Below, one piece after another: positions 5,905-48,900 of a DNA stretch of 64,000 bases. The notes under the pieces were generated by a model. The model was not told the origin of the DNA, did not search any database, and worked only from the letters and a program-made list of their open reading frames with translations. The number at the start of each line of letters is the position of its first letter. The first letter of the stretch is position 1. Both the position numbers and the translations under genes were made by a program. The stretch is from Archivesica marissinica (taxonomy: Eukaryota > Mollusca > Bivalvia > Venerida > Vesicomyidae): assembly GCA_014843695.1 (NCBI GenBank), contig JABXNX010000098.1:1-64000 (forward strand), in the 5' to 3' direction.

Positions 5905-6175
5905 CGTATTACTGTGTGTGTGTGGTTTACGTTTATTTATCGTCGCTACCGGTTGCCCATATGAGCGACGCCTCCTGAAGATATTAAGTCATTTTAGATT
6001 TTGGAGGATAGTGCATGATACAGACAGAGACCCATTCCAGAGTATCTTCTGGTTCTTTTACGTGCACGGTGTAAAGCCCTGACACGAGACCTCGGTTTAA
6101 CGTCCCATCTGAAAGACTGTTAATTTTATTAGGGTCAGATGGGGATCGAACCTGCGACCTGTACGTGTATATAAA
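5905..6175 (-). repeat. tRNA-derived SINE (family A)
   Basis: The minus strand carries the family A signature: a B-box-like GGTTCGATCCCC, then AATTAACAGTCTTTCAGATG, a body with CTGTCTGTATCAT, and the 3' domain GCGTCGCTCATATGGGCAAC followed by AATAAACGTAAA and a (CA)n end. Other copies are at 9281, 12756, 19138, 21222, 35729, 47040 and 61592. The tRNA-like head is truncated here. Confidence 0.85.
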
Positions 6176-9280: not shown

Positions 9281-9568
9281 GTGTGTGTTTTACGTTTATT
9301 TATCGTCGCTACCGGTTGTCCATATGAGCGACGCCTCCTGAAGAGATTAGTCATTTTAGATTGTTGGAGGATAGTGCAATGATACAGACAGAGACCAATT
9401 CTAGAGTCTCATCTGGTTCTTTTACGTGCACGGTGTACAGCACCGACACGAGACCGGTTTAGCGTCCCATCTGGAAGACTATTAATTTTATTATGGTCAG
9501 ACGGGGGATCGATCCTGCGATCAATGGATTACCAGTCCAGCGTGTTAACACTGGACTACAGATCCGTC
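9281..9568 (-). repeat. tRNA-derived SINE (family A), near full length
   Basis: Minus-strand copy with tRNA-like head (9500-9568, GATCTGTAGTCCAGTGTTAA), body and the 3' domain ending at a GTGTGTG stretch. It abuts the next tRNA-like element at 9569 head to head. Confidence 0.85.
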
Positions 9569-12755: not shown

Positions 12756-13042
12756 GGATCTGTAGTCCAGTGGTTAACACACTGGACTGGTAATCCAGTG
12801 ATCGCAGGTTCGATCCCACGTCTGACTCTAATAAAATTAACAGTCTTTCAGATGGGACGTTAAAACCGAGGTCTCGTGTCGGTGCTTTACACCGTGCACG
12901 TAAAAGAACCAGAGGAGACTCTGTAATGGGTCTCTGTCTGTATCATTGCACTATCCTCCAAAATCTAAAATGACTAATCTCTTCAGGAGGCGTCGCTCAT
13001 ATGGGCAACCGGTAGCGACGATAAATAAACGTAAAACACACA
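12756..13042 (+). repeat. tRNA-derived SINE (family A), full length
   Basis: The head reads GATCTGTAGTCCAGTGGTTA, an anticodon arm CTGGACTGGTAATCCAG with GGT in the anticodon position (Thr-like), and B box GGTTCGATCCC. The common body and 3' domain follow, ending AATAAACGTAAAACACACA. Good reference copy for the family. Confidence 0.9.
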
Positions 13043-13125
13043 ATACAGTACACAGACGGATAAAAGAGAAAAATCCATGTTTCTGTGGTCTCTATAGCAC
13101 CTGTCTATGCAGGAGACAATGTAGG

Positions 13126-19137: not shown

Positions 19138-19430
19138 CTTGTGTTTTACGTTTATTTATCGTCGCTACCGGTTGCCCATATGAGCAACGCCTCCTGAAGA
19201 GATTAGTCATTTTAGATTTTTGGTGGATAGTGCAATGATACAGACAGAGACCCATTCCAGAATCTCCTCTGGTTCTTTTACATACACGGTGTAAAGCACC
19301 GACACGAAACCTCGGTTTAAAGTCCGATCTGAAAGACTGTTAATTTTATTAGGGTCAGACGGGGAATCGGACCTACGATCCCTGGATTACCAGTCCAAAA
19401 TGTTAACCATTGGACTACAGATCTGTCTAT
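19138..19430 (-). repeat. tRNA-derived SINE (family A)
   Basis: Complete minus-strand copy with degenerate head (19370-19430) and the usual GTTTTACGTTTATTTATCG end. Confidence 0.88.
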
Positions 19431-21221: not shown

Positions 21222-21515
21222 ATTTTACAGATGGATCTGTAGTCCAGTGGTAACACGCTGGACTTGTAATCCAGGTATCGCAGGTTCGATCCCCATCTGA
21301 CCCTAATAAAATTAACAGTCTTTCAGATGGGACGTTAAACCGAGGTCTCGTGTCGGTGCTTTACACCGTGCACGTAAAAGAACCAGATGAGATTTTGGAA
21401 TGGGTCTGTCTGTATCATTGTACTATCCTCCAAAAATCTAAAATGACTAATCTCTTCAGGAGGTGTCGTTCATATGGGCAACCGGTAGCGACGATAAATA
21501 AACGTAAAACACACA
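21222..21515 (+). repeat. tRNA-derived SINE (family A)
   Basis: Full-length copy with head GATCTGTAGTCCAGTGG, B box GGTTCGATCCCC and standard 3' domain ending AATAAACGTAAAACACACA. A 5' scrap of a second head lies at 21181-21195. Confidence 0.9.
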
Positions 21516-21679
21516 CACTTGTTTGCATACTAGCATTACTCTCCTATAAGATGAGTTTTTTACCACCAAATACTTATAAGTGAGTGCTAAAATAATTTAA
21601 AATATATATATATTTAAATATGTTAAATGGTATCTATAATGAACTTACACTGGCCAAACATACAATTTATATTTTTGTT

Positions 21680-23114: not shown

Positions 23115-25387
23115 ATGGAAACCTTAATATGTTCATCTAATGTCCGCGGGCTTGCAAACACCAAGAAGCGACTGCAAATATTCCAGTGGTTAAAACGCAA
23201 AACATATGTCAATATGCCTTTTACAGGAAACTCATTCTACTAAAGAATCATTTGGAAATTGGAAATCAGAATGGAAAGGTGAGGCATAGTTTAGCGGAAC
23301 AAAACACAATAGTGAAGGTGTCGCAATTCTTATTAATGAAGTATACCCATGCGTAATCACAAACTTTGAAGAAAAAATAAACGGTCGAATAATTTCACTG
23401 GAACTAAAAATAAAAGAACTTCAATTCACTTTAATTAATATTTATGGACACATACAGATGACCAGCACTTTTACAAAGTGATAGAAATATATCTGCTAGA
23501 AAATAATGATAAAAATGTCTTAATAGGCTGTGATTTTAATACAATATTAGATGTTGACAAAGATAAGAAAAATGGTCAAAAGGACACGTATCTTAAAATG
23601 TAGACAAACAATTTAAAAACAATTTATGACGTTATAAAACAAAACAATTTAGTAGATAAAATATGCAACAGCTAAAAAACAACAACAGTGTAAACAAGAA
23701 CTTGAACTGAAGAAAACAATAGAAGAATTAAAACATAAACTAGTTGATGATAATACAAACACCAACAACTTACAAGAATGATTAAATGAAACACATGAGC
23801 TGCTTAACAATATACTTGAACAAAGAATAAATTGACTTATGATACGAACAAAAGTTATTCATATTGAATCTAACGAAACAAATACAAAATATTTTGCTAA
23901 TTTAGAAAAACAGCATGCTGAGCAAAAGAATATCAATGCACTTAACGTTTCCAATAAAAATATAACTGATCCAACCACAATTCTAGAAGAGGAAAGGATA
24001 TTTTATAAAAACTTATATAAACACAAACAAACAGCTGCTTCATGTCTCAACTTCTTTAATGAAACAGTAACTAAATTAGAATTAGATGATTCTCGACAAT
24101 ATGATGGCCTTTTAGCCGAGTTTGAATGTTGCCAAGCATTATATGAAATGAAAAATAACAAAAGCCCTGGTTCCGATGGTTTAACAGTTGAATTTTACAA
24201 AATCTTATGGAAACATTTAAAGGAATAATATATTAAATTGATAAACTTCTCTTTTCAACAAGGTGAATTAACATGCAAAATCAGGGCATAATAACATTCT
24301 TGCCAAAATCAGTTAAAAGACTCGTAACTTCTGTCAAATTGGTGGCCTATTAGTCTCCTCAATGTAGACTATAAAATAGCAACTAAAACTATTTCAAACA
24401 GAATTAAAAAGGTTTTGCATAAAATAATAAGTCCTGAACAAACCGGTTTCTAAAGGTCGCTATATAGGCGAAAATGTTAAGACTGATATTTGAAATCATT
24501 GAATATGCTGACGAAAATAATCTCCCTTGTCTGCTCTTCTTCTCGGATTACAAAAAAGCATTTGAGAGTCTTGACCACAAGTTCATATTCAAGAGTTTAA
24601 ATCACCTAAAATTTGGAGTATCCTTTACTAATTGGGTTCACTTGTTCTACAATCAGTCAACTAGTGTCATCATCAACAATGGTAATATGTCTGAAGCTTT
24701 TCCAATTGAAAGAGGTGTACAACAAGGATGTCCATTATCATCTTCTCTCTTCATTATATGTATGGAACTACTATCAAACTTCATTACAAACAATAATACA
24801 ATAGTTGGAATAAAAATAAGAAATAAAGAACTTAAACAAACCCTGTTTGCGGTTGATGCAACATACATTAACAATGGACAAAAAGATTCTTTAAACGCCT
24901 AAGTATGATTATCAAAGAATATGGTAAGGCGTCAGGATTAAATATAAATGTTTCAAAATCTAAGATATTGCGTGTAGGCTCTTTAAAAACTTCAAATGTA
25001 AAATATAGTGTAGAAACATCTTTTATTTGGACGTCAGAATCCGCCAAAACTATAGGGATGAACTTCTTTAATGACAAGGAAAGAAATATAAAAAATACCC
25101 TAGAACAAAAACTACTAGAGTTCAGAAATTGTTTAAAAGTGGTAACATCGAAAGCTAACGTTAATGGGAAAAGTTATGATAATAAAAAAACGATTGCTTT
25201 ACCAAAACTTGTATATCTGTTCACTGTGCTCCCTAACCCTGAACCAGAAGTTGTAACAGCGATAAAAAATCAATATATTGTTTTATCTGGGTTTGACCTT
25301 ATCGATACACCCTTATTTTTATGTATTCCTTATTTTCATTTGCTTGTACATTTTTCTCCTAATAACCCAAACTTGTTCCAAATATGA
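23115..25387 (+). pseudogene. Degenerate L1/Tx1-type non-LTR retrotransposon (EN + RT)
   Basis: The N-terminal endonuclease is visible as NVRGLANTKKRLQIFQWL (23130-23190), GVAILINEVYPC (about 23320) and LIGCDFNTILD (about 23520). The RT region gives NNKSPGSDGLTVEFYK (about 24155-24200), PISLLNVDYKIATKTISNRI with a frameshift (24345-24405), FFSDYKKAFESLDHKFI (24540), ERGVQQGCPLSSSLF (24710-24755) and FAVDATY (about 24844). The normal catalytic F/YADD is FAVD, so the first catalytic Asp is lost. Several stops and frameshifts interrupt it. The KSPGSDGL..FYK signature fits the L1/Tx1 group. It is flanked by inverted copies of a ~270-bp element. Confidence 0.85.
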
Positions 25388-26561: not shown

Positions 26562-27917
26562 TTAAGAGGTACGTACAATGCCATTGATCTTTTTTGGAGG
26601 TCTCTTTGGATTATTGGGACTATTAATATTAACGTCTTTCTCAGAGACAGTACCGAGATCTTTCATGGTTAGAGCTTCCCCTGTTCTAACCTCTCTAACG
26701 TTTAAATATTCTGGTACATCTGTGCTAGACATTCCATTTGCCATTCCACTATTACCATGGTTACCAGAATCCCCACTAACAATTCTCCCATTTTCATTCG
26801 ACACTTCACTCACACATTTGTTAACAGATTTACAACCAGAAGCACTTTCTCTGTTATCTGAGCCCATAGTTTGCTCAGTGGACTTGCTTGCGACACTTTC
26901 AATACTTCCAACACTCCCGTCAATGTCTGAAATACTGGTATCGTCAGGATCACCTCTCTCTCCTACTTCACTACTGTTCACTATCACTGGATCAGAGTTA
27001 CTCTCATCTTCAGAAACAGAGTCTATATCTATATCAGCACTATGTATATAACTACCATGTAGAATACCATCAGGAATTATACAATCTAATCCACCATTAG
27101 AATCACTTTGTTCAATATCGTCATTAATTGCACTATTGGATAGTATCACAGGTGTATGGCATGGAGAATTGATATGGCACAGTTTATTATGTTCGATTTT
27201 TGCTATGAACTTGTCATCAGTAACTTCATGGACATTTTCATCATAACTATCACTAATTTTAGTCTCTTCTTCTTCTTCTTCTTCTTCTTCTTCTTCTTCT
27301 TCTTCTTCTTCGGTATTCTCCTGAGATAAGTATGTAGGTGCTAAAACCGAATAGGATGCAATATCCTTTAGTTCAATACTTTCTTGAGGATTGTATTTGG
27401 GCAATTTAGTTTCTTGTTCAGTCAATTGCATGATATCTGATTTATTTAGGTTCCTTTCATCAGTAAAAAAATCAACATCTGATAAAAGGCTACTTATGCT
27501 TTTATCATCTATTGATTTATCAGGTCTAGAAACGTATCCAAAATTCTGAGAATCATTTCCTATTTTAACACTTTCATATGAACCAGTTTTGACAGATTCA
27601 TGTTCAGATCTTACAGATTCTTGCTCCGAGTCAATATCGGCTGGCTGTTTATACCCATCTATATTATCCACATCAAATTCATCCAAAGCATCTGAAATAT
27701 CACATACAGAATATTTCCTGTCATTACCAATGTCCGCATAATTGGTTTGCTTGTGTTTAATAAGTGGATCACTCTCTGAGCTGTTTGGTACCTCAGTGAC
27801 AATGGTACTTTGGCTGGAGTATGGAAATCTATAATCCGTGGCTGAGCCAATACCTGATGTTTCACTGGAATGTTCATCTTCCTGCGATTTGATTAGCTGA
27901 ACATCCTGACCTGATTT
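26562..27917 (-). CDS. Receptor exon 10: cytoplasmic tail and stop
   Basis: Acceptor TTTCTTTCAG, 452 codons including the TAA stop. Holds RFPYSSQ, LPKYNPQ and APTYLSQ (three YxxQ motifs), further tyrosines (NYADIG, SYESVK, YDENV) and the Glu run. Ends PKRPPKKINGIVRTS. A GTACGT donor overlaps the last codons (about 26573), so a longer isoform using another 3' exon is possible. Confidence 0.85.
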   Translation of the reverse strand, partial: KSGQDVQLIKSQEDEHSSETSGIGSATDYRFPYSSQSTIVTEVPNSSESDPLIKHKQTNYADIGNDRKYSVCDISDALDEFDVDNIDGYKQPADIDSEQESVRSEHESVKTGSYESVKIGNDSQNFGYVSRPDKSIDDKSISSLLSDVDFFTDERNLNKSDIMQLTEQETKLPKYNPQESIELKDIASYSVLAPTYLSQENTEEEEEEEEEEEEEEEETKISDSYDENVHEVTDDKFIAKIEHNKLCHINSPCHTPVILSNSAINDDIEQSDSNGGLDCIIPDGILHGSYIHSADIDIDSVSEDESNSDPVIVNSSEVGERGDPDDTSISDIDGSVGSIESVASKSTEQTMGSDNRESASGCKSVNKCVSEVSNENGRIVSGDSGNHGNSGMANGMSSTDVPEYLNVREVRTGEALTMKDLGTVSEKDVNINSPNNPKRPPKKINGIVRTS

Positions 27918-30900
27918 CTGAAAGAAACAAGATGCTCATTGTACAAGTCTTCCACATCAATACATGATTTACTTTCATGGAAAGGGTCTTCCTTAAATTG
28001 AGTGAATACATTTTTTAATAGATATTATATATTGCCTGTTATTGAAACTGAGTAGGTTTTCTGTAAAATATAATGTGTAACAAAGTTCCAACTCATTCAT
28101 GTCAATATAAACCAGACATTTTATTTCATTTTCAGATGATATCATGGCCGTAACAGTTTTCGGACCTCTAAGGTCGACTTACATGTACATCAACTGTCAT
28201 ACTATTATGGGGTACTGTGATATAACAACCTACCTGTATATCTACTGTCATACTATTATGGGGTACTGTGATATAACAACCTACCTGTATATCTACTGTC
28301 ATACTATTATGGGGTACTGTGATATAACAACCTACCTGTATATCTACTGTCATACTATTATGGGGTACTGTGATATAACAACCTACCTGTATATCTACTG
28401 TCATACTATTATGGGGTACTGTGATATAACAACCTACCTGTATATCTACTGTCATACTATTATGGGGTACTGTGATATAACAACCTACCTGTATATCTAC
28501 TGTCATACTATTATGGGGTACTGTGATATAACAACCTACCTGTATATCTACTGTCATACTATTATGGGGTACTGTGATATAACAACCTACCTGTATATCT
28601 ACTGTCATACTATTATGGGGTACTGTGATATAACAACCTACCTGTATATCTACTGTCATACTATTATGGGGTACTGTGATATAACAACCTACCTGTATAT
28701 CTACTGTCATACTATTATGGTGTACTGTGATATAACAACCTACCTGTACATCTACTGTCATACTGTTATGGGGTACTGTAACAACCTACCTGTACATATA
28801 CTGTCATACTAGTATGGGGTACTGTAACAACCTACCTGTACATCTACTGTCATACTATTATGGTGTACTGTAACAACCTACCTGTACATCTACTGTCATA
28901 CTATTATGGGGTACTGTAACAACCTACCTGTACATCTACTGTCATACTATTATGGGGTACTGTAACAACCTACCTGTACATCTACTGTCATACTATTATG
29001 GTGTACTGTAACAACCTACCTGTACATCTACTGTCATACTATTATGGGGTACTGTAACAACCTACCTGTACATCTACTGTCATACTATTATGGTGTACTG
29101 TGATATAACAACCTACCTGTACATCAACTGTCATACTATTATGGTGTACTGTAACAACCTACCTGTACATCTACTGTCATACTATTATGGTGTACTGTGA
29201 TATAACAACCTACCTGTACATCAACTGTCATACTATTATGGTGTACTGTGATATAACAACCTACCTGTACATATACTGTCATACTATTATGGGGTACTGT
29301 AACAACCTACCTGTACATCTACTGTCATACTATTATGGTGTACTGTAACAACCTACCTGTACATCTACTGTCATACTATTGTGGGGTACTGTAACAACCT
29401 ACCTGTACATCTACTGTCATACTATTATGGTGTACTGTAACAACCTACCTGTACATCTACTGTCATACTATTGTGGGGTACTGTAACAACCTACCTGTAC
29501 ATCTACTGTCATACTATTATGGTGTACTGTAACAACCTACTTGTACATCTACTGTCATACTGTTATGGGGTACTGTGATTAACAACCTACCTGTACATAT
29601 ACTGTCATACTATTATGGGGTACTGTAACAACCTACCTGTACATCTACTGTCATACTATTATGGGGTACTGTAACAACCTACCTGTACATCTACTGTCAT
29701 ACTATTATGGTGTACTGTGATATAACAACCTACCTGTACATCAACTGTCATACTATTATGGTGTACTGTAACAACCTACCTGTACATCTACTGTCATACT
29801 ATTCTGGGGTACTGTAACAACCTACCTGTACATCTACTGTCATACTATTCTGGGGTACTGTAACAACCTACCTGTACATCTACTGTCATACTATTATGGT
29901 GTACTGTAACAACCTACTTGTACATCTACTGTCATACTGTTATGGGGTACTGTGATATAACAACCTACCTGTACATATACTGTCATACTAGTATGGGGTA
30001 CTGTAACAACCTACCTGTACATCTACTGTCATACTATTCTGGGGTACTGTAACAACCTACCTGTACATCTACTGTCATACTATTCTGGGGTACTGTAACA
30101 ACCTACCTGTACATCTACTGTCATACTATTCTGGGGTACTGTAACAACCTACCTGTACATCTACTGTCATACTATTCTGGGGTACTGTAACAACCTACCT
30201 GTACATCTACTGTCATACTATTCTGGGGTACTGTAACAACCTACCTGTACATCTACTGTCATACTATTCTGGGGTACTGTAACAACCTACCTGTACATCT
30301 ACTGTCATACTATTCTGGGGTACTGTAACAACCTACCTGTACATCTACTGTCATACTATTCTGGGGTACTGTAACAACCTACCTGTACATCTACTGTCAT
30401 ACTATTCTGGGGTACTGTAACAACCTACCTGTACATCNNNNNNNNNNNNNNNNNNNNNNNNNNNNNNNNNNNNNNNNNNNNNNNNNNNNNNNNNNNNNNN
30501 NNNNNNNNNNNNNNNNNNNNNNNNNNNNNNNNNNNNNNNNNNNNNNNNNNNNNNNNNNNNNNNNNNNNNNNNNNNNNNNNNNNNNNNNNNNNNNNNNNNN
30601 NNNNNNNNNNNNNNNNNNNNNNNNNNNNNNNNNNNNNNNNNNNNNNNNNNNNNNNNNNNNNNNNNNNNNNNNNNNNNNNNNNNNNNNNNNNNNNNNNNNN
30701 NNNNNNNNNNNNNNNNNNNNNNNNNNNNNNNNNNNNNNNNNNNNNNNNNNNNNNNNNNNNNNNNNNNNNNNNNNNNNNNNNNNNNNNNNNNNNNNNNNNN
30801 NNNNNNNNNNNNNNNNNNNNNNNNNNNNNNNNNNNNNNNNNNNNNNNNNNNNNNNNNNNNNNNNNNNNNNNNNNNNNNNNNNNNNNNNNNNNNNNNNNNN

Positions 30901-33900
30901 NNNNNNNNNNNNNNNNNNNNNNNNNNNNNNNNNNNNNNNNNNNNNNNNNNNNNNNNNNNNNNNNNNNNNNNNNNNNNNNNNNNNNNNNNNNNNNNNNNNN
31001 NNNNNNNNNNNNNNNNNNNNNNNNNNNNNNNNNNNNNNNNNNNNNNNNNNNNNNNNNNNNNNNNNNNNNNNNNNNNNNNNNNNNNNNNNNNNNNNNNNNN
31101 NNNNNNNNNNNNNNNNNNNNNNNNNNNNNNNNNNNNNNNNNNNNNNNNNNNNNNNNNNNNNNNNNNNNNNNNNNNNNNNNNNNNNNNNNNNNNNNNNNNN
31201 NNNNNNNNNNNNNNNNNNNNNNNNNNNNNNNNNNNNNNNNNNNNNNNNNNNNNNNNNNNNNNNNNNNNNNNNNNNNNNNNNNNNNNNNNNNNNNNNNNNN
31301 NNNNNNNNNNNNNNNNNNNNNNNNNNNNNNNNNNNNNNNNNNNNNNNNNNNNNNNNNNNNNNNNNNNNNNNNNNNNNNNNNNNNNNNNNNNNNNNNNNNN
31401 NNNNNNNNNNNNNNNNNNNNNNNNNNNNNNNNNNNNNTGGGGTACTGTAACAACCTACCTGTACATCTACTGTCATACTATTCTGGGGTACTGTAACAAC
31501 CTACCTGTACATCTACTGTCATACTATTATGGTGTACTGTAACAACCTACCTGTACATCTACTGTCATACTATTATGGTGTACTGTAACAACCTACCTGT
31601 ACATCTACTGTCATACTATTATGGGGTACTGTAACAACCTACCTGTACATCTACTGTCATACTATTATGGGGTACTGTAACAACCTACCTGTACATCTAC
31701 TGTCATACTATTATGGGGTACTGTAACAACCTACCTGTACATCTACTGTCATACTATTATGGGGTACTGTAACAACCTACCTGTACATCTACTGTCATAC
31801 TAGTATGGGGTACTGTAACAACCTACCTGTACATCTACTGTCATACTATTCTGGGGTACTGTAACAACCTACCTGTACATCTACTGTCATACTATTCTGG
31901 GGTACTGTAACAACCTACCTGTACATCTACTGTCATACTATTATGGGGTACTGTAACAACCTACCTGTACATCTACTGTCATACTATTATGGGGTACTGT
32001 AACAACCTACCTGTACATCTACTGTCATACTATTCTGGGGTACTGTAACAACCTACCTGTACATCTACTGTCATACTATTCTGGGGTACTGTAACAACCT
32101 ACCTGTACATCTACTGTCATACTATTATGGGGTACTGTAACAACCTACCTGTACATCTACTGTCATACTATTGTGGGGTACTGTAACAACCTACCTGTAC
32201 ATCTACTGTCATACTATTATGGTGTACTGTAACAACCTACCTGTACATCTACTGTCATACTATTGTGGGGTACTGTAACAACCTACCTGTACATCTACTG
32301 TCATACTATTATGGTGTACTGTAACAACCTACTTGTACATCTACTGTCATACTGTTATGGGGTACTGTGATATAACAACCTACCTGTACATATACTGTCA
32401 TACTAGTATGGGGTACTGTAACAACCTACCTGTACATCTACTGTCATACTATTATGGGGTACTGTAACAACCTACCTGTACATCTACTGTCATACTATTA
32501 TGGTGTACTGTGATATAACAACCTACCTGTACATCAACTGTCATACTATTATGGTGTACTGTAACAACCTACCTGTACATCTACTGTCATACTATTCTGG
32601 GGTACTGTAACAACCTACCTGTACATCTACTGTCATACTATTCTGGGGTACTGTAACAACCTACCTGTACATCTACTGTCATACTATTATGGTGTACTGT
32701 AACAACCTACTTGTACATCTACTGTCATACTGTTATGGGGTACTGTGATATAACAACCTACCTGTACATATACTGTCATACTAGTATGGGGTACTGTAAC
32801 AACCTACCTGTACATCTACTGTCATACTATTCTGGGGTACTGTAACAACCTACCTGTACATCTACTGTCATACTATTCTGGGGTACTGTAACAACCTACC
32901 TGTACATCTACTGTCATACTATTCTGGGGTACTGTAACAACCTACCTGTACATCTACTGTCATACTATTCTGGGGTACTGTAACAACCTACCTGTACATC
33001 TACTGTCATACTATTGGGGTACTGTACAACCTACCTGTACATCTACTGTCATACTATATGGGGTACTGTAACAACCTACCTGTACATCTACTGTCATACT
33101 ATTCTGGGGTACTGTAACAACCTACCTGTACATCTACTGTCATACTATTATGGGGTACTGTAACAACCTACCTGTACATCTACTGTCATACTATTCTGGG
33201 GTACTGTAACAACCTACCTGTACATCTACTGTCATACTATTCTGGGGTACTGTAACAACCTACCTGTACATCTACTGTCATACTATTATGGGGTACTGTA
33301 ACAACCTACCTGTACATCTACTGTCATACTATTATGGGGTACTGTAACAACCTACCTGTACATCTACTGTCATACTATTATGGGGTACTGTAACAACCTA
33401 CCTGTACATCTACTGTCATACTATTATGGGGTACTGTAACAACCTACCTGTACATCTACTGTCATACTATTATGGGGTACTGTAACAACCTACCTGTACA
33501 TCTACTGTCATACTATTATGGTGTACTGTAACAACCTACCTGTACATCTACTGTCATACTATTATGGTGTACTGTGATATAACAACCTACCTGTACATCA
33601 ACTGTCATACTATTATGGTGTACTGTAACAACCTACCTGTACATCTACTGTCAACACTATTCGGGGTACTGTAACAACCTACCTGTACATCTACTGTCAT
33701 ACTATTCTGGGGTACTGTAACAACCTACCTGTACATCTACTGTCATACTATTATGGTGTACTGTAACAACCTACTTGTACATCTACTGTCATACTGTTAT
33801 GGGGTACTGTGATATAACAACCTACCTGTACATATACTGTCATACTAGTATGGGGTACTGTAACAACCTACCTGTACATCTACTGTCATACTATTCTGGG

Positions 33901-36900
33901 GTACTGTAACAACCTACCTGTACATCTACTGTCATACTATTCTGGGGTACTGTAACAACCTACCTGTACATCTACTGTCATACTATTCTGGGGTACTGTA
34001 ACAACCTACCTGTACATCTACTGTCATACTATTCTGGGGTACTGTAACAACCTACCTGTACATCTACTGTCATACTATTCTGGGGTACTGTAACAACCTA
34101 CCTGTACATCTACTGTCATACTATTCTGGGGTACTGTAACAACCTACCTGTACATCTACTGTCATACTATTCTGGGGTACTGTAACAACCTACCTGTACA
34201 TCTACTGTCATACTATTCTGGGGTACTGTAACAACCTACCTGTACATCTACTGTCATACTAGTATGGGGTACTGTAACAACCTACCTGTACATCTACTGT
34301 CATACTAGTATGGGGTACTGTAACAACCTACCTGTTCATCTACTGTCATACTATTCTGGGGTACTGTAACAACCTACCTGTACATCTACTGTCATACTAT
34401 TCTGGGGTACTGTAACAACCTACCTGTACATCTACTGTCATACTATTATGGGGTACTGTAACAACCTACCTGTACATCTACTGTCATACTATTCTGGGGT
34501 ACTGTAACAACCTACCTGTACATCTACTGTCATACTATTATGGGGTACTGTAACAACCTACCTGTACATCTACTGTCATACTATTCTGGGGTACTGTAAC
34601 AACCTACCTGTTCATCTACTGTCATACTATTATGGGGTACTGTAACAACCTACCTGTACATCTACTGTCATACTATTCTGGGGTACTGTGATGCCCATGC
34701 TCTGTCTGACCCTCTTATATTTCCGACAACACCAACTGAAAAGTAGACAGATAATCAAAATATTACTGAAAATCAGTCATAAAATTGTTGTTGTAACATG
34801 GGCAGAGGGCCTACATGTCAACGGAGAAATAATGATTTATAGAAAATGATAATTAACAAAATAATTTTAAGAATCACAAATCAGCATGACGAAAAATCAT
34901 TACGCTTTTATTAATAAATTACATAGCTGATACAAAAGTAATTAGCAGGCTCTGAATAGCAAGCTCCAATTTTTCTTTCTCTCCAGCACGACCCCAATTT
35001 TTCTTTCTCTCTCCAGCACGACCCCCATCTCTTTCTTTCTCCTTCCCTCTCCCATAAGTCAAACTTTTTCTTATTCTAATTTACTTTGTTTTAATAATTC
35101 TACAAAATGTACTTTTTTCAGAAAAAAAATGATTTTGTGTAAAAATATAATCGTTATGTTTCTATATTTATATATGCTTGAAATCAGTAGTTGCTATTTC
35201 TATTCATTTACTATCTTGTCGGGAAGGGCAGTCAAGGGCAGCTTAAACAGTCAAAATAGTACCACAAATTAATCATGTCTGCATAATGATCATGGGTAGT
35301 AATCGTGGAGAACAGTAATTGACAGGTCGCCACATTCAAGGAAGATTTATCACTTAAACAAATTGTTTATTTTAGTTTGAAAAGTCTCTTTATGATAGAA
35401 AAACGATGCAACAATAAGCTAAGTGGCGCTAGAAAAAATCGAGTTTACAGTTTGGTTTGGTTTGGTTTAAACATATTTATTCGACATTATATAATTTATT
35501 TACAACAAATAATTATGTACACAATAAATACAAGTGGATTGAAATGAAAGCTAAAAGCTTATTGGATTTCTCCCATGAATGAGTTTGAACTGAAAATGAA
35601 ATAAAATGTCTGGTTTATATTGACATGAATGAGTTGGAACTTTGTTACACATTATATTTTACAGAAAACCTACTCAGTTTCAATAACAGGCAATATATAA
35701 TATCTATTAAAAAAATTGATTCACTCAAACAGATCCCCCGTCTGACCCTAATGAAATTAACAGTCTTTCAGATGGGACGTTAAACCGAGGTCTCGTGTCG
35801 GTGCTTTACACCGTGCACGTAAAAGAACAAGAGGAGACTCTGGAATTGGTCTCTGTCTGTATCATGCACTATCCTCCAAAATCTAAAATGACTAATCTCT
35901 TCAGGAGGCGTCGCTCATATGGGCAACTGGTAGCGACGATAAATAAACGTAAAACACACACTTATTCACTCAATTTAAGGAAGACCCTTTCCATGAAAGT
36001 AAATCATGTATTGATGTGGAAGACTTGTACAATGAGCATCTTGTTTCTTTCAGAAATCAGGTCAGGATGTTCAGCTAATCAAAGCGAAGGAAGATGAACA
36101 TGCCAGTGAAACATCAGGTATTGGCTCAGCCACGGATTCTAGATTTCCATACTCCAGCCAAGTACCATTGTCACTGAGGTACCAAACAGCTCAGAGAGTG
36201 ATCCACTTATTAAACAGAAGCAAACCAATTATGCAGACATTGGTAATGACAGGAAATATTCTGTATGTGATATTTCAGATGCTTTGGATGAATTTGATGT
36301 GGATAATATAGATGGGTATAAACAGCCAGCCGATATTGACTCGGAGCAAGAATCTGTAAGAGCTGAACATGAATCTGTCAAAACTGGTTCATATGAAAGT
36401 GTTAAAATAGGAAATGATTCTCCAAATTTTGGATACGTTTCTAGACCTGATAAATCAATAGATGACAAAAGCATAAGTAGCCTTGATGTGGATAATATAG
36501 ATGGGTATAAACAGCCAGCCCATTTTGGAGTTTGGTTTGAAAACATTTACGTTGACAATATTTCAAACTGCAATGGCTGTGAAAAATTATGTTGTTTCAA
36601 CCAGTGCAATAATACATTTTATTTCAACGATAAATTTCTATATTTCATTGGAAATCATAAAATATAAATGTTTCTTACCATACTAGAGCAACAACAACAA
36701 TGATAGTGACAACTACACAGACAATAACCATCAACAGCACCGGACTCACTCCATCTGTAATACAACAATGATAGCCATAACTACACAGACAATAACCATC
36801 AACAGCACCTGACTCACTCCATCTGTAATACAACAATGATAGCCATAACTACACAGACAATAACCATCAACAGCACCTGACTCACTCCATCTGTAATACA

Positions 36901-39900
36901 ACATTGATAGCCATAACTACACAGCCAATAACCATCAACAGCACCGGACTCACTCCATCTGTAATACAACAATGATAGCCATAACTACACAGACAATAAC
37001 CATCAACAGCACCTGACTCACTCCATCTGTAATACAACAATGATAGCCATAACTACACAGACAATAACCATCAACAGCACCTGACTCACTCCATCTGTAA
37101 TACAACATTGATAGCCATAACTACAGCCAATAACCATCAACAGCACCGGACTCACTCCATCTGTAATACAACAATGATAGTGACAACTACACAGACAATA
37201 ACCATCAACAGCACTGGACTCACTCCATCTGTAATACAACAATGATAGCCATAACTACACAGCCAATAACCATCAACAGCACCGGACTCACTCCATCTGT
37301 AATACAACAATGATAGTGACAACTACACAGACAATAACCATCAACAGCACCGGACTCACTCCATCTGTAATACAACAATGATAGCCGTAACTACACAGCC
37401 AATAACCATCAACAGCACCGGACTTACTCCTTCTGTAATACAACAATGATAGCCATAACTACACAGCCAATAACCATCAACAGCACCGGACTCACTCCAT
37501 CTGTAATACAACAATGATAGCCGTAACTACACAGCCAATAACCATCAACAGCACCGGATTCACTCCATCTGTAATACAACATGAAATATTCTTACCATCA
37601 AACCTCAGATATAATAGCAACCAATCTGCCGGAATGTTGGTCACCACAAGTTAGACTGGTCCCTAATAAATAACGCAAGAATAGCTATAAAGTATATTCA
37701 AATACCAAAATCGCTATTCGTTGCCATCCCTACTTTAAAGTCATGTTCCTGTTATGAATGTCATGTTCCTTCTATGACTGTCACAAGTCATGTTACCATT
37801 ATGACTGTCACAAAGTCATGTTACCATTATGACTGTCACAAAGTCATGTTACCATTATGACTGTCACAAGTCATGTTACCATTATGACTGGCAAAAAGTA
37901 ATTTGTTATGACTGGCAAAATGTTCCTGTTGTGACTGACACAGTCATATTCCTGATATGACTGACACAAAGTCATGTTCCTACTATGACTGTCACAAAGT
38001 CATGTTCCTACTATGACTGACACAAAGTCATGTTCCTACTATGACTGACACAAAGTCATGTTCCTACTATGACTGACACAAAGTCATGTTCCTACTATGA
38101 CTGACACAAAGTCATGTTCCTGTTATGTCTCACACAAAGTCAAGTTCCTGTTATGACTGACACAAAGTCATGTTCCTGATATTACTGACACAAAGTGACT
38201 TTATTACATTACAAATCATACAAAAATGCACTGATGTACAACAATAATTTATGAAGCTTGTTTATCAGTTTTCTATTGTTCATATTGTAAATAATTGTCT
38301 CAAAATTGATCCTCCAAAAATCTAAAATGACTGATCTCTTCAGGAGGCGTCGCTCATATGGGCAACCGGTAGCGACATTAAATAAATGTAAAACACACAA
38401 AGATTATATTTGAATTATTGTTACTTACTTGTCCTCTCAGAAATGGTGAGCGATATGGACTTTGTATTTAGTGGTCCCATTCCTGCTTTGCTGCTTCCCC
38501 TAACCCACACGCAGACTAGGGAACCAACCGTTAGACCGCTAACAGTATAACTGTTGCTCTGTCGGGATACACGGGCTGATACTGTATCCTCCAAACCTGA
38601 AGAGAACCAATGAACAATGTTACACTCTGTACAAGGTCTTCCTTACCGGTATGTAGTATTTATCTACGGGACATAATCACTCCCTTGCTTTTAAACACAG
38701 TTGGAGGTCGTGATAGCGCAGTGGATGCGCATTCGCTTCAGGCGCGAAAGGTCCGGAGTTCGAGCCCCACTGGAGCCATTACGATTGTGCCCTTAGGCAA
38801 GGCATTTAAATTCCACGTTGCCTCTTCTCTCTCCCTCGTGGCGATGGATTCCATCAGGAATGAGGTCTCGAGAGTGATTTATATAAGTTGAAATAACTTG
38901 TTTCGCAATCGAGCTAAAATAAATTTGTATAAACTAAACACAGGTGGACAAAATCCCACCATCTATGTTACACTCTGTACAAGGTCTTCCTTACAGGTAC
39001 GTAGTATTTATCTACGGGAGCGGGACATAATCACTCCCTTGCTTCTAAACACAGGTGGACAAAATCCCACCATCTATGCTTATCTCTGTACACGGTCTTC
39101 ATTACAGGTACGTAGTATTTATCTACGGGACATAATCACTCCCTTGTTTCTAAACACAGGTGGACAAAATCCCACCATCTATGCTTATCTCTGTACACGG
39201 TCTTCATTACAGGTACGTAGCATTTATCTACGGGACATAATCACTCCCTTGCTTCTAAACACAGGTGGATGAACAAGTTTGTCTATGTAACTGCTAGTTT
39301 TAATCAGTGTGAATCAATATAAGGTACTTGCATGACCTCTTGAAACAATACAACATTTACAGATACTTGACCTATGACCTGTATTTAAAGTGTGACCTTG
39401 AAACTGATATGGTTCAAACACGAGTTATGTATGTCATCATCTCGATGTTGTTAACATCAGACACAAGTTTCAACAAAATCCTTTAAGGGCTGTATGGAGA
39501 TATGGACCAGCTTGTTCGTTGACCGGTAAATGCAATATTGACCTGGAACTGACGTAGTTGTAAACATGGGTCCTGAACGTTGTCTAAATATGACGAATAA
39601 TTTACCGATGTTTCTGGAAATTCTTTCAAGGGGTTTAGGAGATATCGGTATCGGACACAAAATGTTGCATCTAAAAAAGACATCCTCCCATTTCGTCCAT
39701 GGTGGGGAAATAATAACACATTGTACTTACATTTGCAAGTTTCCTTTCCATCGCCGATACAATACATGACGTTGTAGTGTGTGATGTAGGCTTTAGTGAC
39801 CTTGCAGTCATAGAGGGTCCATTCTACAGTGAACCCATTGTCTGGTGTCATCATTGTGAGATGGACATTTTGCACAGGTTCATCTTCATCTGGCACTGAA

Positions 39901-42900
39901 ATCATCACTTTAATTTAACCCTTTCCTTCATAGAGATTTAGGTTAATATATTATTATATCTCCATACAAACGCCAGCCATTTAGCTATCATGCAGTGGTT
40001 AAGTAGTCACCATATCTATCCCACCTCCATAGATATTACTGGGACTACATGAGATTTAGGTTAATATACTATTATATCTCCATACAAACGACAGCTAAAT
40101 GGCTGTCGTTTGTATGGAGATATAATAATATATTAACCTAAATCTCTATGAAGGAAAGGGTGAAAAAACTAATAATATCCAGGATTTTTGCAAATGAAGC
40201 AGTACAAACCCACCCATGACAACAAACATCAAAGCAAAACCATGTTGTCATTAATGGGCCTCTGATGGTTAGGTGCATAATTGATAGCATAATTGTTAGT
40301 ATGTCATAAAAACATAATGTGTATCTATTTATCTATAGCCGTATTGTGTTTATTTAAGTCGTAGCTTGGCATCTTTAACTCGTGTGTAATATGTTTGTTC
40401 TAAACATAATTACGTTTAATACCAATTTAAACTATGGATAAAAAAGCCGCCGTGATTGAAACCCAGTCACAATAGAATAGTAAGTGCCAATCTCACAACG
40501 TGTACATTACGCGAGTGTACCGATCAAAGGGGATGTCATTGCCATTAACAAAAGCTGTGAAAACTTTTGTGTGACACGCGGACCTGGACACTCAGCCAAT
40601 TGTGTTCGACCAAAAGGTGTTAATTTAAGTACTAATTGATTTCATGGGACCAGTGATCTGGTTCGAGAGTTCCAGTCATCCGTGCTCGAGTCATCGAAGG
40701 TAGAACAATATGCATTATAGAGATTATCGCCGGGACCAGACGACATGTTCGAGCCAACGGTGGTGTTCGAGCCAACCGAGTTCGAGGCAACGACGTTCGA
40801 CTGTACTAACAGTGCACAATTACCTATTAAAGTTCAGAGTTCATTCTAGGTCAGAATGTTTGGGAGAAGTGAGAAAGCGCGTAATCGCTTCCTTAAATGG
40901 TGTTCTTTAATATACTTCTGCAAAATAGGGTTAAAATGCACAGTTCAACCATTAAATACATTTGAATAGAAGGAGTGCTTTATAACTTTATAATGGGCCA
41001 GTGTATCTTACTAGCCAAAAGTTTTTTTTGTTTTTTTTAGGGAGAAGTCAGGGTCCCTAGGGCGACAATTTCGCCCACATCGCCCTCTAATCTGATCCCT
41101 GAAAGTTTTATCTTATTTCATTGATAAGTAATCGTTGTTGGGCTAATTCTATACTTATTTACTTTCTGTGATTACCTCCACTGAAGAGCAGAATGCAATA
41201 ATAAACAAAGGTCACCTTTGGGGAGTGGCCGACCATTTTCGGAAAAATCTTAATTTCACTTTTGAGAATCTGTTGATTGCGTAGAAATTAGTCACCGATT
41301 GAAAATAATTGTTGAAATTATTTCGGACGAATGTGTACTGTAGTAGCAATGTTGTTTATACGTGAAATAATATTTTGTGGTGGATACAATTCTATGCCAT
41401 TTAAAGCTATAGAGTTACCTTTTCCTGCTTCGTAGATGCACGGTTCCCAGTGGATACCAGTATCAGCCGACAGACCTTGACCTTTGTCATAACCATGGGT
41501 AACAAGACCATACTGATATATCTCATTACACTGGTTGCCAGGCAACATAAATAATGTTGCATTTGTCATCAGTTTCTTCCTTCTGACTGGTTCCTGAAAT
41601 GTATCACAAATAATTTGAAAATTTAATGTTTTTCGTATTTTGTTTAAATCATTGAGAATAAATGTACCACAGCATTTAGACCCCCTGAATAATAACTCTT
41701 CTTAACCCTTTCCCTCATAGAAGCACCTCTTGACGCCATTACCAATACCACATACATTAACCCTTTCCCTCATAGAAGCACCTCTTGACGCCATTACCAA
41801 TACCACATACATTAACCCTTTCCCTCATAAGAAGCACCTCTTGACGCCATTACCAATATACATACATTAACCCTTTCCCACATAGAAGCACCTCTTGATC
41901 ATTACCAATATGACATACATTAACCCTTTCCCTCATAGAAGCACCTCTTGACGCCATTACCAATACGACATACATTAACCCTTTCCCTCATAGAAGCACC
42001 TCTTGACGCCATTACCAATACGACATACATTAATCCTTTCCCTCATAGAAGCACCTCTTGACGCCATTACCAATATGCCATACATTAACCCTTTCCCTCA
42101 TAGAAGCACCTCTTGACGCCATTACCAATATGACATACATTAACCCTTTCCCTCATAGAAGCACCTCTTGACACCATTACCAATATGACATACATTAACC
42201 CTTTCCCACATAGAAGCACCTCTTGAGCCATTACCAATATGACATACATTAACCCTTTCCCTCATAGAAGCACCTCTTGACGCCATTACCAATACGACAT
42301 ACATTAACCCTTTCCCTCATAGAAGCACCTCTTGACGCCATTACCAATACCACATACATTAACCCTTTCCCACATAGAAGCACCTCTTGATGCCATTACC
42401 AATATGACATACATTAACCCTTTCCCACATAGAAGCACCTCTTGATGCCATTACCAATATGACATACATTAACCCTTTCCCTCATAGAAGCACCTCTTGA
42501 CGCCATTACCAATATGACATACATTAACCCTTTCCCTCATAGAAGCATATCTTGACGCCATTACCAATATGACATACATTAACCCTTTCCCTCATAGAAG
42601 CACCTCTTGACGCCATTACCAATACAACATACATTGACCTTTTCCCTCATAGAAGCACATCTTGACACAATTACCAATACGATATACAGTGACAATGTAG
42701 TAGCCAAACCAATGTTCATTAACCCTTTCCCTCATAGAAGCACCTCTTGAGGCCATTACCAATACGACATACATTAACCCTTTCCCTCATAGAAGCACTT
42801 TGTCGCCATTACAAATACGACATACATTAACCCTTTCCCTCATAGAAGCACCTCTTGATGCCATTACAAATACGACATACATTAACACTTTCCCTCATAG

Positions 42901-45900
42901 AAGCACCTCTTGACGCCATTACCAATATGACATACATTAACCCTTTCCCTCATAGAAGCACCTCTTGACGCCATTACCAATACGACATACATTGACCTTT
43001 CCCTCATAGAAGCACCTCTTGACGCCATTACCAATATGACATACATTAACCCTTTCCCTCATAGAAGCACCTCTTGATGCCATTACAAATATGACATACA
43101 CTGACAATGTAGTAGCCAAACCAATGTTCATAATAAAGGCCAGAATCGCATGTAGTCTCAGTAATATCTAGGGAGGTGGGATAGATATGGCGACTACTTA
43201 TCCACTGCATGATAGCTAAATGGCTGTCGTTTGTATGGAGATATAATAATATATTAACCTAAATCTCTATGAAGGAAAGGGTGAAAAAACTAATAATATC
43301 CAGGATTTTGAAACAGTACAAACCCACCCATGACAACAAACATCAAAGCAAAACAATGTTGTCCTTAATGGGCCTCTGATGGTTAGGTGCATAATTGATA
43401 GCATAATTGTTAGTATGTCATAAAAACATAATGTGTATCCATTTCAGCTACACACAAAATATCGATTAACACACAAATTAACGTCAGTAACTTAAAGTGA
43501 ATTTATGTGAAATTGTATCAAATGTTCCCAGTAAAGACAAATTTGTTGTATCGACTTGGAAAACGATGTAATTTATTCATACAATACTTATAACAGGCAG
43601 CTATAATCAGTTGGTGTATCTTGTCAACATTTAGTGCTTCTGTGTGGGAGAGCACGTAATACAGTACTTTGTATGTACGACAGAAGACAAGCGAGAAATT
43701 AAATTAGGTTGTTCAAAAGACCATTAAATTAGGTTGTTCAAAAGACAATTATATTAGGATTTTTAAAAGACACTTAAATTAGGTTGTTTGAAAGACAATT
43801 TAATTAGGTTGTTAGAAAGACAATTAAATTAGGTTGTTCAAAAGACAATTAAATTAGGTTGTTAGAAAGACAATTAAATTAGGTTGTTCAAAAGACAATT
43901 AAATTAGGTTGTTTGAAAGACAATTAAATTAGGTTGTTCGAAAGACAATTAAATTAGGTTGTTCAAAAGACAATTAAATTAGGTTGTTTGAAAGAAAATA
44001 ACATAGGTTGGTCGAAAGACAATTAAATTAGGTTATTCGAAATACTGTTACAGGGTAAAACGGGGCATCACACTCTGCACCAGACACGATTGTTGAGTAC
44101 TGTTGCACCAGATCACTGCATGGAATACAATGCACATCAAAACCACACTCGCCCCAGACCGACCCTCTTAAAACAGAAACCAATCTGACACGATTGTTGA
44201 GTACCGTTGCACCAGATCACTGCATGGAATGGAATGGAATATATCTTAACAACACCCAGGTCAGCCCAACCCTCTTATAAAACAGAAACCAATCTGACAC
44301 GATTGTTGAGTACCGATGCACCAGATCACTGCATGGAATGAAATGGAATATATCTTAACAACACCCATGTCAGCCCAACCCTCTTATAAAACAGAAACCA
44401 ATCTGACACGATTGTTGAGTACCAATGCACTAGTCCAAATATTTAGACTTGAAAAATGTGACAGTTTACTATCCAGGCATTTTTCAAAGTCTAAACGCTA
44501 AACCTCAATTACGCGTAGCATATTTTATATTCTAAAAAGTCCTTTTTATAAATTAAAATTGTTAACAAGATCAACACACATACCGTTGTTTGAATTCTGC
44601 AGTCTATAACGTCTCTTGACACAATATTATACATGAAATCAACGTTTAAATTTCATGGCAGAGTTTCGCCATTCGAAATCGGCCATTTTGAATATTTGAT
44701 TATTGCGAAAAACAAAAATAGAACTAGAAATAGACGAAAATGTTTATCTCCGTGCCATTACGGTGAACCAAATAAGATTTCGTTTAATATCCAATTGTTC
44801 ATACATATGAAATAATAATCATTCGGATTTCTTTTGTGAAGACTGTGCAGAAAAAATGGGAGAATTTTACCTGTCGACTTCAAACAGCTAAATGACATGC
44901 ACAACGGTAATACAATATATTTTTAACGTTCTTAATATCTATATTTAGGATTATTCTTAACACCAATGCACACATTTATAACCGTTCATGTCCAAAAAGC
45001 TTCAAAATATTGGTCAGAAATTCCGCCATCGGATCAGGGCTATGCGAAAATGAGCTTTAACGATAACACCTCGAAATAACAGGAAAAACAAATTACGTAG
45101 AGGTCTTATTTATAGTCCTATAAATAAGAATACATCTTAACAACACCCACGTCAGCCCCACCCTCTTATAAAACAGAAACTAACCTGACACGATTGTTGA
45201 GTACCGATGCACCAGATCACTGTATGGAACATGTTCGAGTATCTTGTCCCGTTTTCTTTGACCACGATGTTCGCTACTGTCACGCAGCTTTGGTCTGTTT
45301 TATTGTATTCTACGATCAATTCTGACGGAACGGGTGCTGTAATTAGTAGATTACATGGAGATCATGCAAGGTATAGAGACACTAATATTCAACATTTTAT
45401 AATTTATTACTGGTACAGAGAGCTTGTATGCCTACTTTTAACAAGAAACACATTTTATACAGCTACCCATCACGATATGCAAAGAAAATCATCATTCTTA
45501 TGTATTACCAAATTTGATATACAGTCAAACCTGTGTTAACCCATTTCATTCTGGATACCGTTCAAACAGTACTTGCAAAGAACATAGAGCCAGATCAACC
45601 GCCATGGTACGTGCCGTCTGATCAAGCTCTATGCTGTTTGCTATTCAGATGATCTTGCTAAGACACTTGGCTATGTAGCAAACAACATAGATCCTGATCA
45701 GCACGCAGCGTCACGCTGCGGCTGATCTGGATCTATGTTGTTTGCAAAAGCCTTTTAATGTATCCAGAATGAAATGGGTTAAGCAGCCAGTTTCCAAATT
45801 CCCAATTTGTTATTTCATTATATATTTGCCATCTATTAAGCAGCCACCTGTGCTAAGCAGCCACTTTCTCGGATTCCCTTGGTTGGCTGCGTAAGACAGG

Positions 45901-48900
45901 TTTGACTGTATTTTAAATTGAATCTGCTCCACATAAATTTGTCTTATATTTCCTATCTACTATCTCTAATAACACTTTACATTGGAAACATTTTTATTTA
46001 TTGACCCTTTGCAATCTGAGTAAATAAAATCACTTTTGCAAACAACATAGATCCAGACCAGCCACGGCATAACGCCGCATCTGATCAGGATCTATATTGT
46101 TTGCCATTCAGCCAAGTGTTTTAGCTCCACTATCCGAATATCAAACAGCATAGAGCCTGATCAGACGGCACAGCTCTATGCTGTTTGCAAAATTGATTTT
46201 ATCTGCCGCTAGCGGGCAAAGGGTTAATATACTTGTATATCGACCAGCATTCTAACACTCTAAATATATTGATGACTTTTTTTTCATTGCATGCAATTGT
46301 ATATGTTTTATCAGGCCAGGTCAAAAAAATATGTTTGGTTCCAATTACCCGACCGACCCTAGTATTTCACGCCCGACCCTAGTATTTCATGCCCGACCCT
46401 AGTATTTCACGACCGACCCTAGTATTTCACGACCGACCCTAGTATTTCACGCCCAACCCTAGTATTTCACGCCCGACCCTAGTATTTCACGCCCGACCCT
46501 AGTATTTCACGCCCGACCCTAGTATTTCACGCCCGACCCTAGTATTTCATGCCCGACCCTAAAGTGAAACCACGCCAGACCCTAAAGTAAAACCAGACAG
46601 TTAAAGCAAACGGTGCCATTGCATATGAACAGATACAATATACCTGTACAAATCCCGCCCAGACACAAAAACAAAATAATAATGGCCTCAAAGGTCTCAA
46701 TTTGAAAAGCCAAACTAGCTTTTCATGAGAGACAAACATATCCAACTGGAACGGGATTATAAAATGCACAACTAGACATCATGCTGATGCCTCCTACACA
46801 GTGTGGTGAATAATTTACAAGGGTTTTGGAGAGGAAGCGTGGATTGGAAGCGTGGTTTTGTATTATAAAAATGTTCAAAGGGCCATAAAGAAATCCTCCG
46901 GAACGAGATTACAATATAATAGCAACTAGACACAATGATGATGTTCCAGCAAAGATTAGTGAAACTCCAACAAGAGGTTTTGGAGATGAAGCATGGACAA
47001 GGAAACATTGGACAGATGGACGGACAGACGGCAAAGGCATGTGTGTTTTACGTTTATTTATCGTCGCTACCAGTTGCCCATATGAGCGACGCCTCCTGAA
47101 GAGATTAGTCATTTTAGATTTTTGGAGGATAGTGCAATGATACAGACAGAGACCCATTCAAGAGTCTCCTCTGGTTCTTTTATGTGCAAGGTGTAAAGCA
47201 CTGACACAAGACCTCGGTTTAAAGTCGCATCTGAAAGACTGTTAATTTTATTAGGGTTAGACAGGGGATCGAACCTGCGATCCCTGGATTACCAGTCCAG
47301 CGTGTTACCACTGGACTACAGATCCCTCTGTAACGGCAAAGGCAAAAACGTCTGTAACGGCAAAGGCAAAAACATATTTCTCCCCTTGATTGGGGGGGGG
47401 ACATAAAAATATGCAAATATCAAGAAATGTTATCCTGGCATACCGAACATTGCTGGAAAAATGGTTACAACTCTTGAATCTTCCAGAGAACCAGCACTAT
47501 TTGCAGCACGCAGGGAAATATTGAGGATTTTGTGGTTTGGTACGTCAATATGTGTGGACGCCGCCGGATGTTGGACGCTCTTACTTCTGTTGTATGCCGT
47601 AATGTAGTACATAACATTGTCCGGATCATCATGTAGATTGCAGTCAATCAACGGCTGAAAGTAAACGGACGGACAAAACTATAATATTTGAATGCCGTAT
47701 TGTCGTTCATAACTGTGTACAGTACAGTTACTCAACGGCTGAAAGTAAACAGATGGACAAAACTATAATATTTGAATGCCGTATTGTCGTTCATAACCGT
47801 GTACAGTACAGTCCCTCAACGGCTGAAAGTAAATGGATGCAATCATAAAGCACATGCAATATTCATACTTGTCTTGTATGCTGTATTGTTCAACAACATC
47901 ATGAATCAAATAATCCATCGCCATGAGGGAGGTAAAAGAGGCATGAGGGAGGTAGAAGAGGCATGAGGGACCAAGTTAATTTGTAATGAACAACATTCCG
48001 GCAGATTGGTTGCTATTATCTCTGAGGTTTGATGGTAAGAATTTTTCATGTTGTATTACAGATGGAGTGAGTCCGGTGCTGTTGATGGTTATTGTCTGTG
48101 TAGTTATGGCTATCATTGTTGTATTACAGATGGAGTGAGTCCGGTGCTGTTGATGGTTATTGGCTGTGTAGTTATGGCTATCATTGTTGTATTACAGATG
48201 GAGTGAGTCCGGTGCTGTTGATGGTTATTGTCTGTGTAGTTATGGCTATCATTGTTGTATTACAGATGGAGTGAGTCCGGTGCTGTTGATGGTTATTGGC
48301 TGTGTAGTTATGGCTATCATTGTTGTATTACAGATGGAGTGAGTCCGGTGCTGTTATTGGTTATTGGCTGTGTAGTTATGTCTATCATTGTTGTATTACA
48401 GATGGAGGGAGTCCGGTGCTGTTGATGGTTATTGTCTGTGTAGCTATGGCTATCATTGTTGTATTACAGATGAAGGGAATCCAGTGCTGTTGATGGTTAT
48501 TGTCTGTGTAGTTATGGCTATCATTGTTGTATTACAGATGGAGTGAGTCCGGTGCTGTTGATGATTATTGTCTGTGTAGTTATGGCTATCATTGTTGTAT
48601 TACAGATGGAGTGAGTCCGGTGCTGTTGATGGTTATTGGCTGTGTAGTTATGGCTATCATTGTTGTATTACAGATGGAGTGAGTCCGGTGCTGTTGATGG
48701 TTATTGTCTGTGTAGTTATGGCTATCATTGTTGTATTACAGATGGAGTCCGGTGCTGTTGATGGGTATTGTCTGTGTAGTTATGGCTATCATTGTTGTAT
48801 TACAGATGGAGTCCGGTGCTGTTGATGGTTATTGGCTGTGTAGTTATGGCTATCATTGTTGTATTACAGATGGAGTCCGGTGCTGTTGATGGTTATTGGC

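Follow-up and report, generated by a model that had tools for sequence, protein, structure and literature searches.

We have analysed a 64,000-nucleotide (nt) stretch of the genome of the clam Archivesica marissinica (contig JABXNX010000098.1, positions 1 to 64,000; the whole of this stretch is referred to here as the window), and found that a minus-strand gene for a LIFR-like receptor carries tandem arrays whose repeat units contain the gene's own exon–intron junctions. Tandem junction-spanning copies were present at four of the 19 junctions that fall in the window, namely the exon 3 acceptor (2 copies), the exon 4 donor (3 copies), the exon 8 acceptor (75 copies) and the exon 9 donor (116 copies). 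These arrays are very probably minisatellites of the type known as 'mirages', in which a segment that happens to hold a junction is tandemly duplicated, the resulting array expands and is homogenised, and splicing would then leave the array out.

Ten exons on the minus strand of the window join via consensus splice sites to give 894 codons, of which the final codon is the only stop. Exons 1 to 7 of this part of the gene (earlier exons lie outside the window) were placed by tblastn and by the reading frame. They are exon 1 (63536–63731), exon 2 (60935–61035), exon 3 (47444–47654, which by eye encodes part of a fibronectin-III-like domain), exon 4 (45185–45336, with the donor CAG/GTTAGT, where the slash marks the splice boundary), exon 5 (41419–41593), exon 6 (39731–39895) and exon 7 (38429–38596); tblastn with the Mercenaria mercenaria protein P0001, described below, gave 48.7% for exon 3 and 54.7% for exon 4. 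Exon 8 (36679–36754, 76 nt, donor ATG/GTAAGAAA) encodes the transmembrane part and exon 9 (34654–34735, 82 nt) the juxtamembrane part, while exon 10 (26562–27917, acceptor TTTCTTTCAG/AAATCAGG) carries the frame on from exon 9 and encodes the intracellular tail and the stop codon. The frame of this ten-exon model is unbroken when exon 8 is entered at its 3'-most acceptor and exon 9 is left at its 5'-most donor. A frameshift that had been supposed at the start of exon 5 was removed once tblastn with the Mercenaria protein revealed exon 4 (45336–45185).

All 19 exon–intron junctions, each taken with 40 base pairs (bp) on either side, were compared with the window at E values up to 1e-3. Besides the four junctions listed above, the exon 10 acceptor had a single copy that was inverted and non-tandem, and the remaining 14 junctions had no copies in the window at this threshold. 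Two further candidates were rejected as junction arrays: near exon 6, a 55-bp array has 20 bp in common with the intron before the acceptor but stops short of the junction, and in a 105-bp array near exon 7 one copy ends about 20 bp from the acceptor and is likewise non-spanning.

The array built on the end of exon 9 and its donor (28180–34689, minus strand) has 117 units in all, 92 of them of 46 bp and others of 51 bp, and is interrupted by a gap of 1000 Ns at 30438–31437; the 116 junction-spanning copies are counted besides the genuine one. On the minus strand the 46-bp unit opens with 32 nt that correspond to the terminus of exon 9 (as far as ...GTACAG), and its remaining 14 nt start with GTAGG. 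Genuine exon 9, which ends at the first-unit donor CAG/GTAGGT, is the 5' end unit of its own array. At the opposite edge the 3'-most unit (28183–28221, minus strand) has the donor CAT/GTAAGT, and past the array the intron begins CAT/GTAAGTCGACC, not GTAGGTTGTTAT. The initial annotation had derived the unit from the last 32 nt of exon 9, its donor and 14 nt of intron; the exon part and the donor are borne out, but with a flank of this sequence a native intron origin for the 14 nt cannot be shown.

The 51-bp unit corresponds to 17 codons, and it is open across the eleven 3'-most units. Since genuine exon 9 has the ATCACAG of the 51-bp form, the 46-bp unit probably derives from the 51-bp unit through a loss of 5 bp. 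Neighbouring units in this array are more alike than in shuffled order (117 cores of 32 nt, mean 1.84 versus 2.35 differences, with 0 of 2000 shuffles as low). We conclude that there has been concerted evolution, with local homogenisation, inside the exon 9 array, on which alone this neighbour test was made. The two edge units, a sample of two only, have 1 and 2 differences from the 32-nt core consensus, against an interior mean of 1.37.

The exon 8 array (36694–37581, minus strand) has 13 units (13.1 copies) of 68 bp and was correctly described at first as being built from the acceptor and body of the exon: 13 nt ending in the acceptor (TGTTGTATTACAG) are followed by 55 nt of exon 8. Genuine exon 8 is the 3' end unit of this array, so that the terminal position reported for the genuine exon in both of these arrays holds, at the 5' end for exon 9 and at the 3' end for exon 8. 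The 68-bp unit begins with TGTTGT, and the same six bases directly follow its last copy. Twelve of the 75 acceptor copies besides the genuine one are the sense copies of this array. The other approximately 63 units lie in an inverted copy of the array and its 5' flank (47963–52293, plus strand), which is located in intron 2 antisense to the gene and was absent from the earlier description. The inverted array proper spans 48049–52293, and together with its flank it matches 36694–37667 at 93.4% over 976 bp. It can be seen that these two inverted 68-bp arrays (47963–52293 and 36694–37667) flank exons 3 to 7 on both sides, and their sequences could allow the precursor messenger RNA to pair with itself over almost 1 kb. 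At 37589–37598, just upstream of the first 68-bp unit, the minus strand has the sequence ATGGTAAGAA; these 10 bases also occur at the exon 8 donor and were perhaps left by an earlier duplication of greater extent.

A separate block (35590–36484, plus strand) holds the inverted copy of the exon 10 acceptor. This block partially repeats intron 9 and the beginning of exon 10, with 97.8 and 97.9% identity to 27486–28135, and it also contains a dispersed repeat of about 230 bp.

The same pattern had been claimed for exons 3 and 4. At exon 3 it is present, as an 84-bp array (47641–47833, minus strand, 2.3 copies) spans the acceptor. At exon 4 a 109-bp array (44083–44430, minus strand, 3.2 copies) does derive from the donor region, but it begins approximately 690 bp past the end of the genuine unit copy, and all three of its junction copies have CAG/AT in place of CAG/GT at the donor. 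It was perhaps split from the genuine exon by an insertion. The stretch of approximately 690 bp between exon 4 with its flank and the 109-bp array (44434–45127) has, by eye, short inverted repeats near both ends and may be an inserted element.

A potential explanation for the sizes of the arrays and for the inverted copies is that they are artefacts of assembly, since two of the arrays are interrupted by gaps of 1000 Ns and the inverted blocks might be haplotypes that were wrongly joined. However, the units have distinct variants and a local order, the inverted blocks are 2–7% divergent and one of them holds its own inserted repeat, and the exon 3 and exon 4 junction copies lie in gap-free sequence. 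We consider this explanation very unlikely.

Origin of the arrays

When translated, the exon-derived portions of the units can be aligned with Mercenaria and Ruditapes proteins (at exon 4, for instance, HTVIWCIGTQQSCQ pairs with HTLVWCKGT-QDCQ), and in this alignment the clam proteins show no repeat at the places that match the arrays. The exons therefore predate the arrays, and the original proposal that the arrays were seeded by the exons, rather than the reverse, is upheld. The converse, that the arrays came first and the exons arose within them, is already contradicted by these alignments, and we give it practically no weight.

In the founding event, a segment measuring between 51 and 109 bp and containing, by chance, one exon–intron junction would have been tandemly duplicated, after which unequal exchange would have expanded and homogenised the arrays. 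For exon 8 the founder would have been duplicated between two TGTTGT repeats. The founder at exon 9 was perhaps an in-frame coding repeat of 17 codons, and the loss of 5 bp would then have produced the 46-bp units, broken the frame and turned the array into intron. Junction arrays would be neutral and tolerated for as long as splicing excludes the array, by use of the 5'-most donor in the case of a donor array and of the 3'-most acceptor in the case of an acceptor array, while arrays that break coding sequence would presumably be purged.

The location of the genuine exon as the terminal unit had also been noted. When a segment with one junction is duplicated, only one end copy remains joined to the exon, and the genuine exon is therefore terminal (3' for an acceptor and 5' for a donor); as any such tandem duplication gives the same layout, the location points to no special mechanism. 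The further suggestion that replication slippage was responsible is only partly sustained. Direct short repeats at the edges of the units are the expected trace of slippage. Exon 8, with TGTTGT on both sides, fits this, and exon 4, where TTC is at best a short direct repeat, fits weakly. The units at exon 9 and exon 3 have stretches with no match at the genuine flank, which calls for either an inserted segment or the loss of flanking sequence, and simple slippage is not sufficient for all of the founders. No clear common founder rule could be discerned from the partial-copy lengths of 25 of the approximately 34 arrays in the window.

Those approximately 34 minisatellite arrays (period of at least 15 bp, merged by hand from the rows of Tandem Repeats Finder) fill 30,360 of the 64,000 bases, or 47% when both 1000-N gaps inside arrays are counted, and the background of arrays in the window is thus very high. 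To gauge the chance expectation we took the 16 arrays of the gene, with units of 18–109 bp and the inverted copy excluded, and calculated the probability that a founder unit covers a junction. On the present length of the gene 0.38 junction arrays are expected, with a probability (P) of at least four of 0.0004; this value is misleading because the arrays themselves have lengthened the introns. On the 13,421 non-array bases the expectation is 1.05 (P = 0.016), on the non-array bases plus one founder unit each it is 0.99 (P = 0.013), and on 10 kb it is 1.41 (P = 0.043). A subset of 12 arrays gave P values of 0.0092 (non-array bases) and 0.025 (10 kb), and with purging of arrays within coding exons the expectations were 1.24 and 1.78 and the P values 0.029 and 0.088. 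The excess of junction arrays over chance is weak, and the locus was picked for this very pattern. The special tie of arrays to exon edges that had been proposed is therefore not supported, P lying between 0.013 and 0.088 when the fairer null models are applied, and an edge-linked mechanism is no more than a possibility.

An explanation that does invoke such a tie is that arrays in this genome arise preferentially at exon edges, by way of a splice- or transcription-linked process such as breaks at R-loops or repair templated by exon ends. That four of the 16 gene arrays contain a junction (P = 0.013 and 0.016 on non-array length), and that donors and acceptors have both been hit, would be in keeping with this. 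However, P climbs to 0.029–0.088 with shorter ancestral introns or with purging of coding arrays, before any correction for the chosen locus; the five arrays with the longest units include three of the four junction arrays, and unit length alone raises the chance of hitting a junction; and no common motif was spotted at the four founders, which were compared by eye only. Taken together, preferred birth at exon edges seems unlikely. A more far-reaching proposal, in which arrays are recurrent and mechanism-linked in this genome with exon borders as hot spots, the end of exon 9 has turned into intron and double-stranded RNA from the 68-bp arrays affects the inclusion or circularisation of exons 3 to 7, appears to us quite improbable.

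Splice-site choice and variation within the arrays

Reading past the exon 9 donor at 34654 meets a stop in the second unit, before the next donor is reached. Likewise, all 12 of the upstream exon 8 acceptors lead to a stop, located 67–813 nt before the donor. From the reading frame we infer that splicing uses the first exon 9 donor (34654) and the last exon 8 acceptor (36754). By analogy with human F7, a rule by which the most upstream donor is used would apply to exon 9.

It could be argued that the arrays have instead been kept by selection as splice regulators, with, for example, use of an upstream exon 8 acceptor giving rise to a tailless, membrane-anchored decoy receptor. Eleven of the 12 upstream acceptors would indeed give the complete transmembrane segment and a stop a few residues on (the twelfth gives a longer, shifted stretch), and GT and AG are both intact in all 116 exon 9 units that an exon-body anchor retrieved. 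Moreover, the 92 exon 9 units of 46 bp have no variable site at positions 1–17 and 43–46, the donor, intron and acceptor part; variation on the exon side of this array is due partly to one indel-shifted unit, and in the 51-bp units the base before the donor varies.

A comparison of the two 68-bp arrays, restricted to units of exactly that length, bears on this. In the sense array none of the 13 acceptor-part positions was variable, as against 11 of the 55 exon-part positions (11 of 12 cut units), and in the antisense array the corresponding figures were one of 13 and 17 of 55 (50 of 62 units, after exclusion of 12 that differed in length). The antisense array cannot serve as an acceptor in the transcript of the gene, and therefore a like pattern exists without possible function, although the sense array may have passed on some of the sameness of the acceptor part. 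The low variation of the splice signals, in the exon 9 array and in the antisense array alike, can be accounted for by homogenisation. Furthermore, the donor GT is lost from all three exon 4 junction copies. The selection on splicing that the initial annotation had raised is therefore not favoured. RNA with stops as far before the donor as those reached from the upstream exon 8 acceptors would be degraded by the usual rule, and we regard the maintenance of the arrays as splice regulators as highly improbable.

Some observations do weigh against the mirage-type origin that we favour. Between 12 and 56 nt of the units at exons 9 and 3 have no clear source. Variation in the exon 9 array is lower over the splice signals than over the exon-derived portion, and the antisense control was made on the 68-bp array and not on that of exon 9. 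Finally, the four junction arrays exceed the 1.0 to 1.8 that are expected under the fairer models.

Receptor identity and other features of the window

A protein search with an early gene model that lacked exon 4 gave one match, the Mercenaria mercenaria protein named 'leukemia inhibitory factor receptor-like' (P0001, E value 1.4e-84), and a profile search gave two further relatives, uncharacterized proteins of Mercenaria and Ruditapes philippinarum (P0002 and P0003). Identity to P0002, P0003 and P0001 is 47, 40 and 40%, respectively, and the similarity covers the extracellular, transmembrane and tail exons. In the 464-residue piece of the window product that was scanned, Pfam found one fibronectin type III domain (fn3, 2.4e-08) and no class I cytokine-receptor domain, and LIFR_D4 was seen under the cut-off in P0002 and P0003, in the region preceding the exons of the window. 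On these similarities the gene is a bivalve LIFR-like receptor, with the label LIFR-like borrowed from the name that the source gives to P0001.

At 3084–3887 on the plus strand there is an open frame of 267 residues without a Pfam match; it resembles the acidic tail of the receptor by eye and is perhaps the tail exon of a related gene. An 18-bp array of more than 7 kb (53522–60888), with a 1000-N gap inside it and long open frames on the minus strand, occupies intron 2 and begins 46 nt after the exon 2 donor. A dispersed repeat of 230–300 bp is present in eight copies that are 88–96% identical (5918–6157, 9281–9520, 12802–13050, 19140–19378, 21278–21518, 35732–35961, 47040–47280 and 61643–61886), with a shorter piece at 38309–38399. 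Open frames at 23836–25387 resemble, by eye, pieces of a reverse transcriptase of the type without long terminal repeats.

Relation to known junction minisatellites

Junction-spanning minisatellites have been described as mirages in the amphioxus genes for Adh3, the globins BflGb6 and BflGb9, troponin C and PGBD5 (PMC3087553, PMC3902484), the last two having been added in PMC3902484. With these and the human examples below in print, the initial view of the clam arrays as unusual was overstated. A repeat unit that contains an exon–intron boundary, as in the mirages, is found at four of the 19 clam junctions. An authentic boundary beside the array with the frame unbroken, which is our own wording of the descriptions in those papers, is found directly at exons 3, 8 and 9 and, with approximately 690 bp between, at exon 4. 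The amphioxus mirages are likewise homogenised within clusters, and their units measure 10–72 bp in Adh3 and 150–160 bp in the globins, so that the clam units fall between and among them. By contrast, BflGb6 has 6 and 3 units in two haplotypes whereas the clam has up to 116 junction copies, and while mirages have been described in lancelets, the clam gene has four arrays, one of them with an inverted copy.

In human CBS a 31-bp variable number tandem repeat, c.1444_1467+7(16_21), is present in 16–21 copies at one junction (PMC2630376); judged by this designation, a unit comprises 24 exonic nt and the 7 intronic nt that follow, with a donor in each copy as in the clam. Intron 7 of human F7 has 37-bp repeats with the donor in the first, and the most upstream donor alone is used in the normal condition (PMC6627357); splicing there is known, whereas the choice of donor at clam exon 9 is deduced from the frame. 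Boundary tandem repeats in human segmental duplications, averaging four units of 30 bp, can alter splicing and form new introns (PMC2812944); unlike the clam arrays, they were found by comparing paralogues with transcripts. In the Rogers model an intron is gained by tandem duplication of an exon segment containing AGGT (PMC4974935). There the duplicated segment supplies both GT and AG, as do CAG/GTAGG and ACAG in the exon 9 unit, but the clam arrays lengthen an existing intron. No report of junction arrays in a bivalve was present among the literature matches listed, which is weak evidence of absence. As far as those matches show, the mollusc host, the size of the arrays with their many units and the presence of four in one gene are new, and the kind of array is already known.

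If mirages are common beyond the lancelets, false exons would often mislead gene models in repeat-rich mollusc genomes, and the arrays would provide a natural series of duplicated splice sites with which to study how the spliceosome chooses its site. Mirages may also reveal an intermediate step on the way from exon edge to intron.

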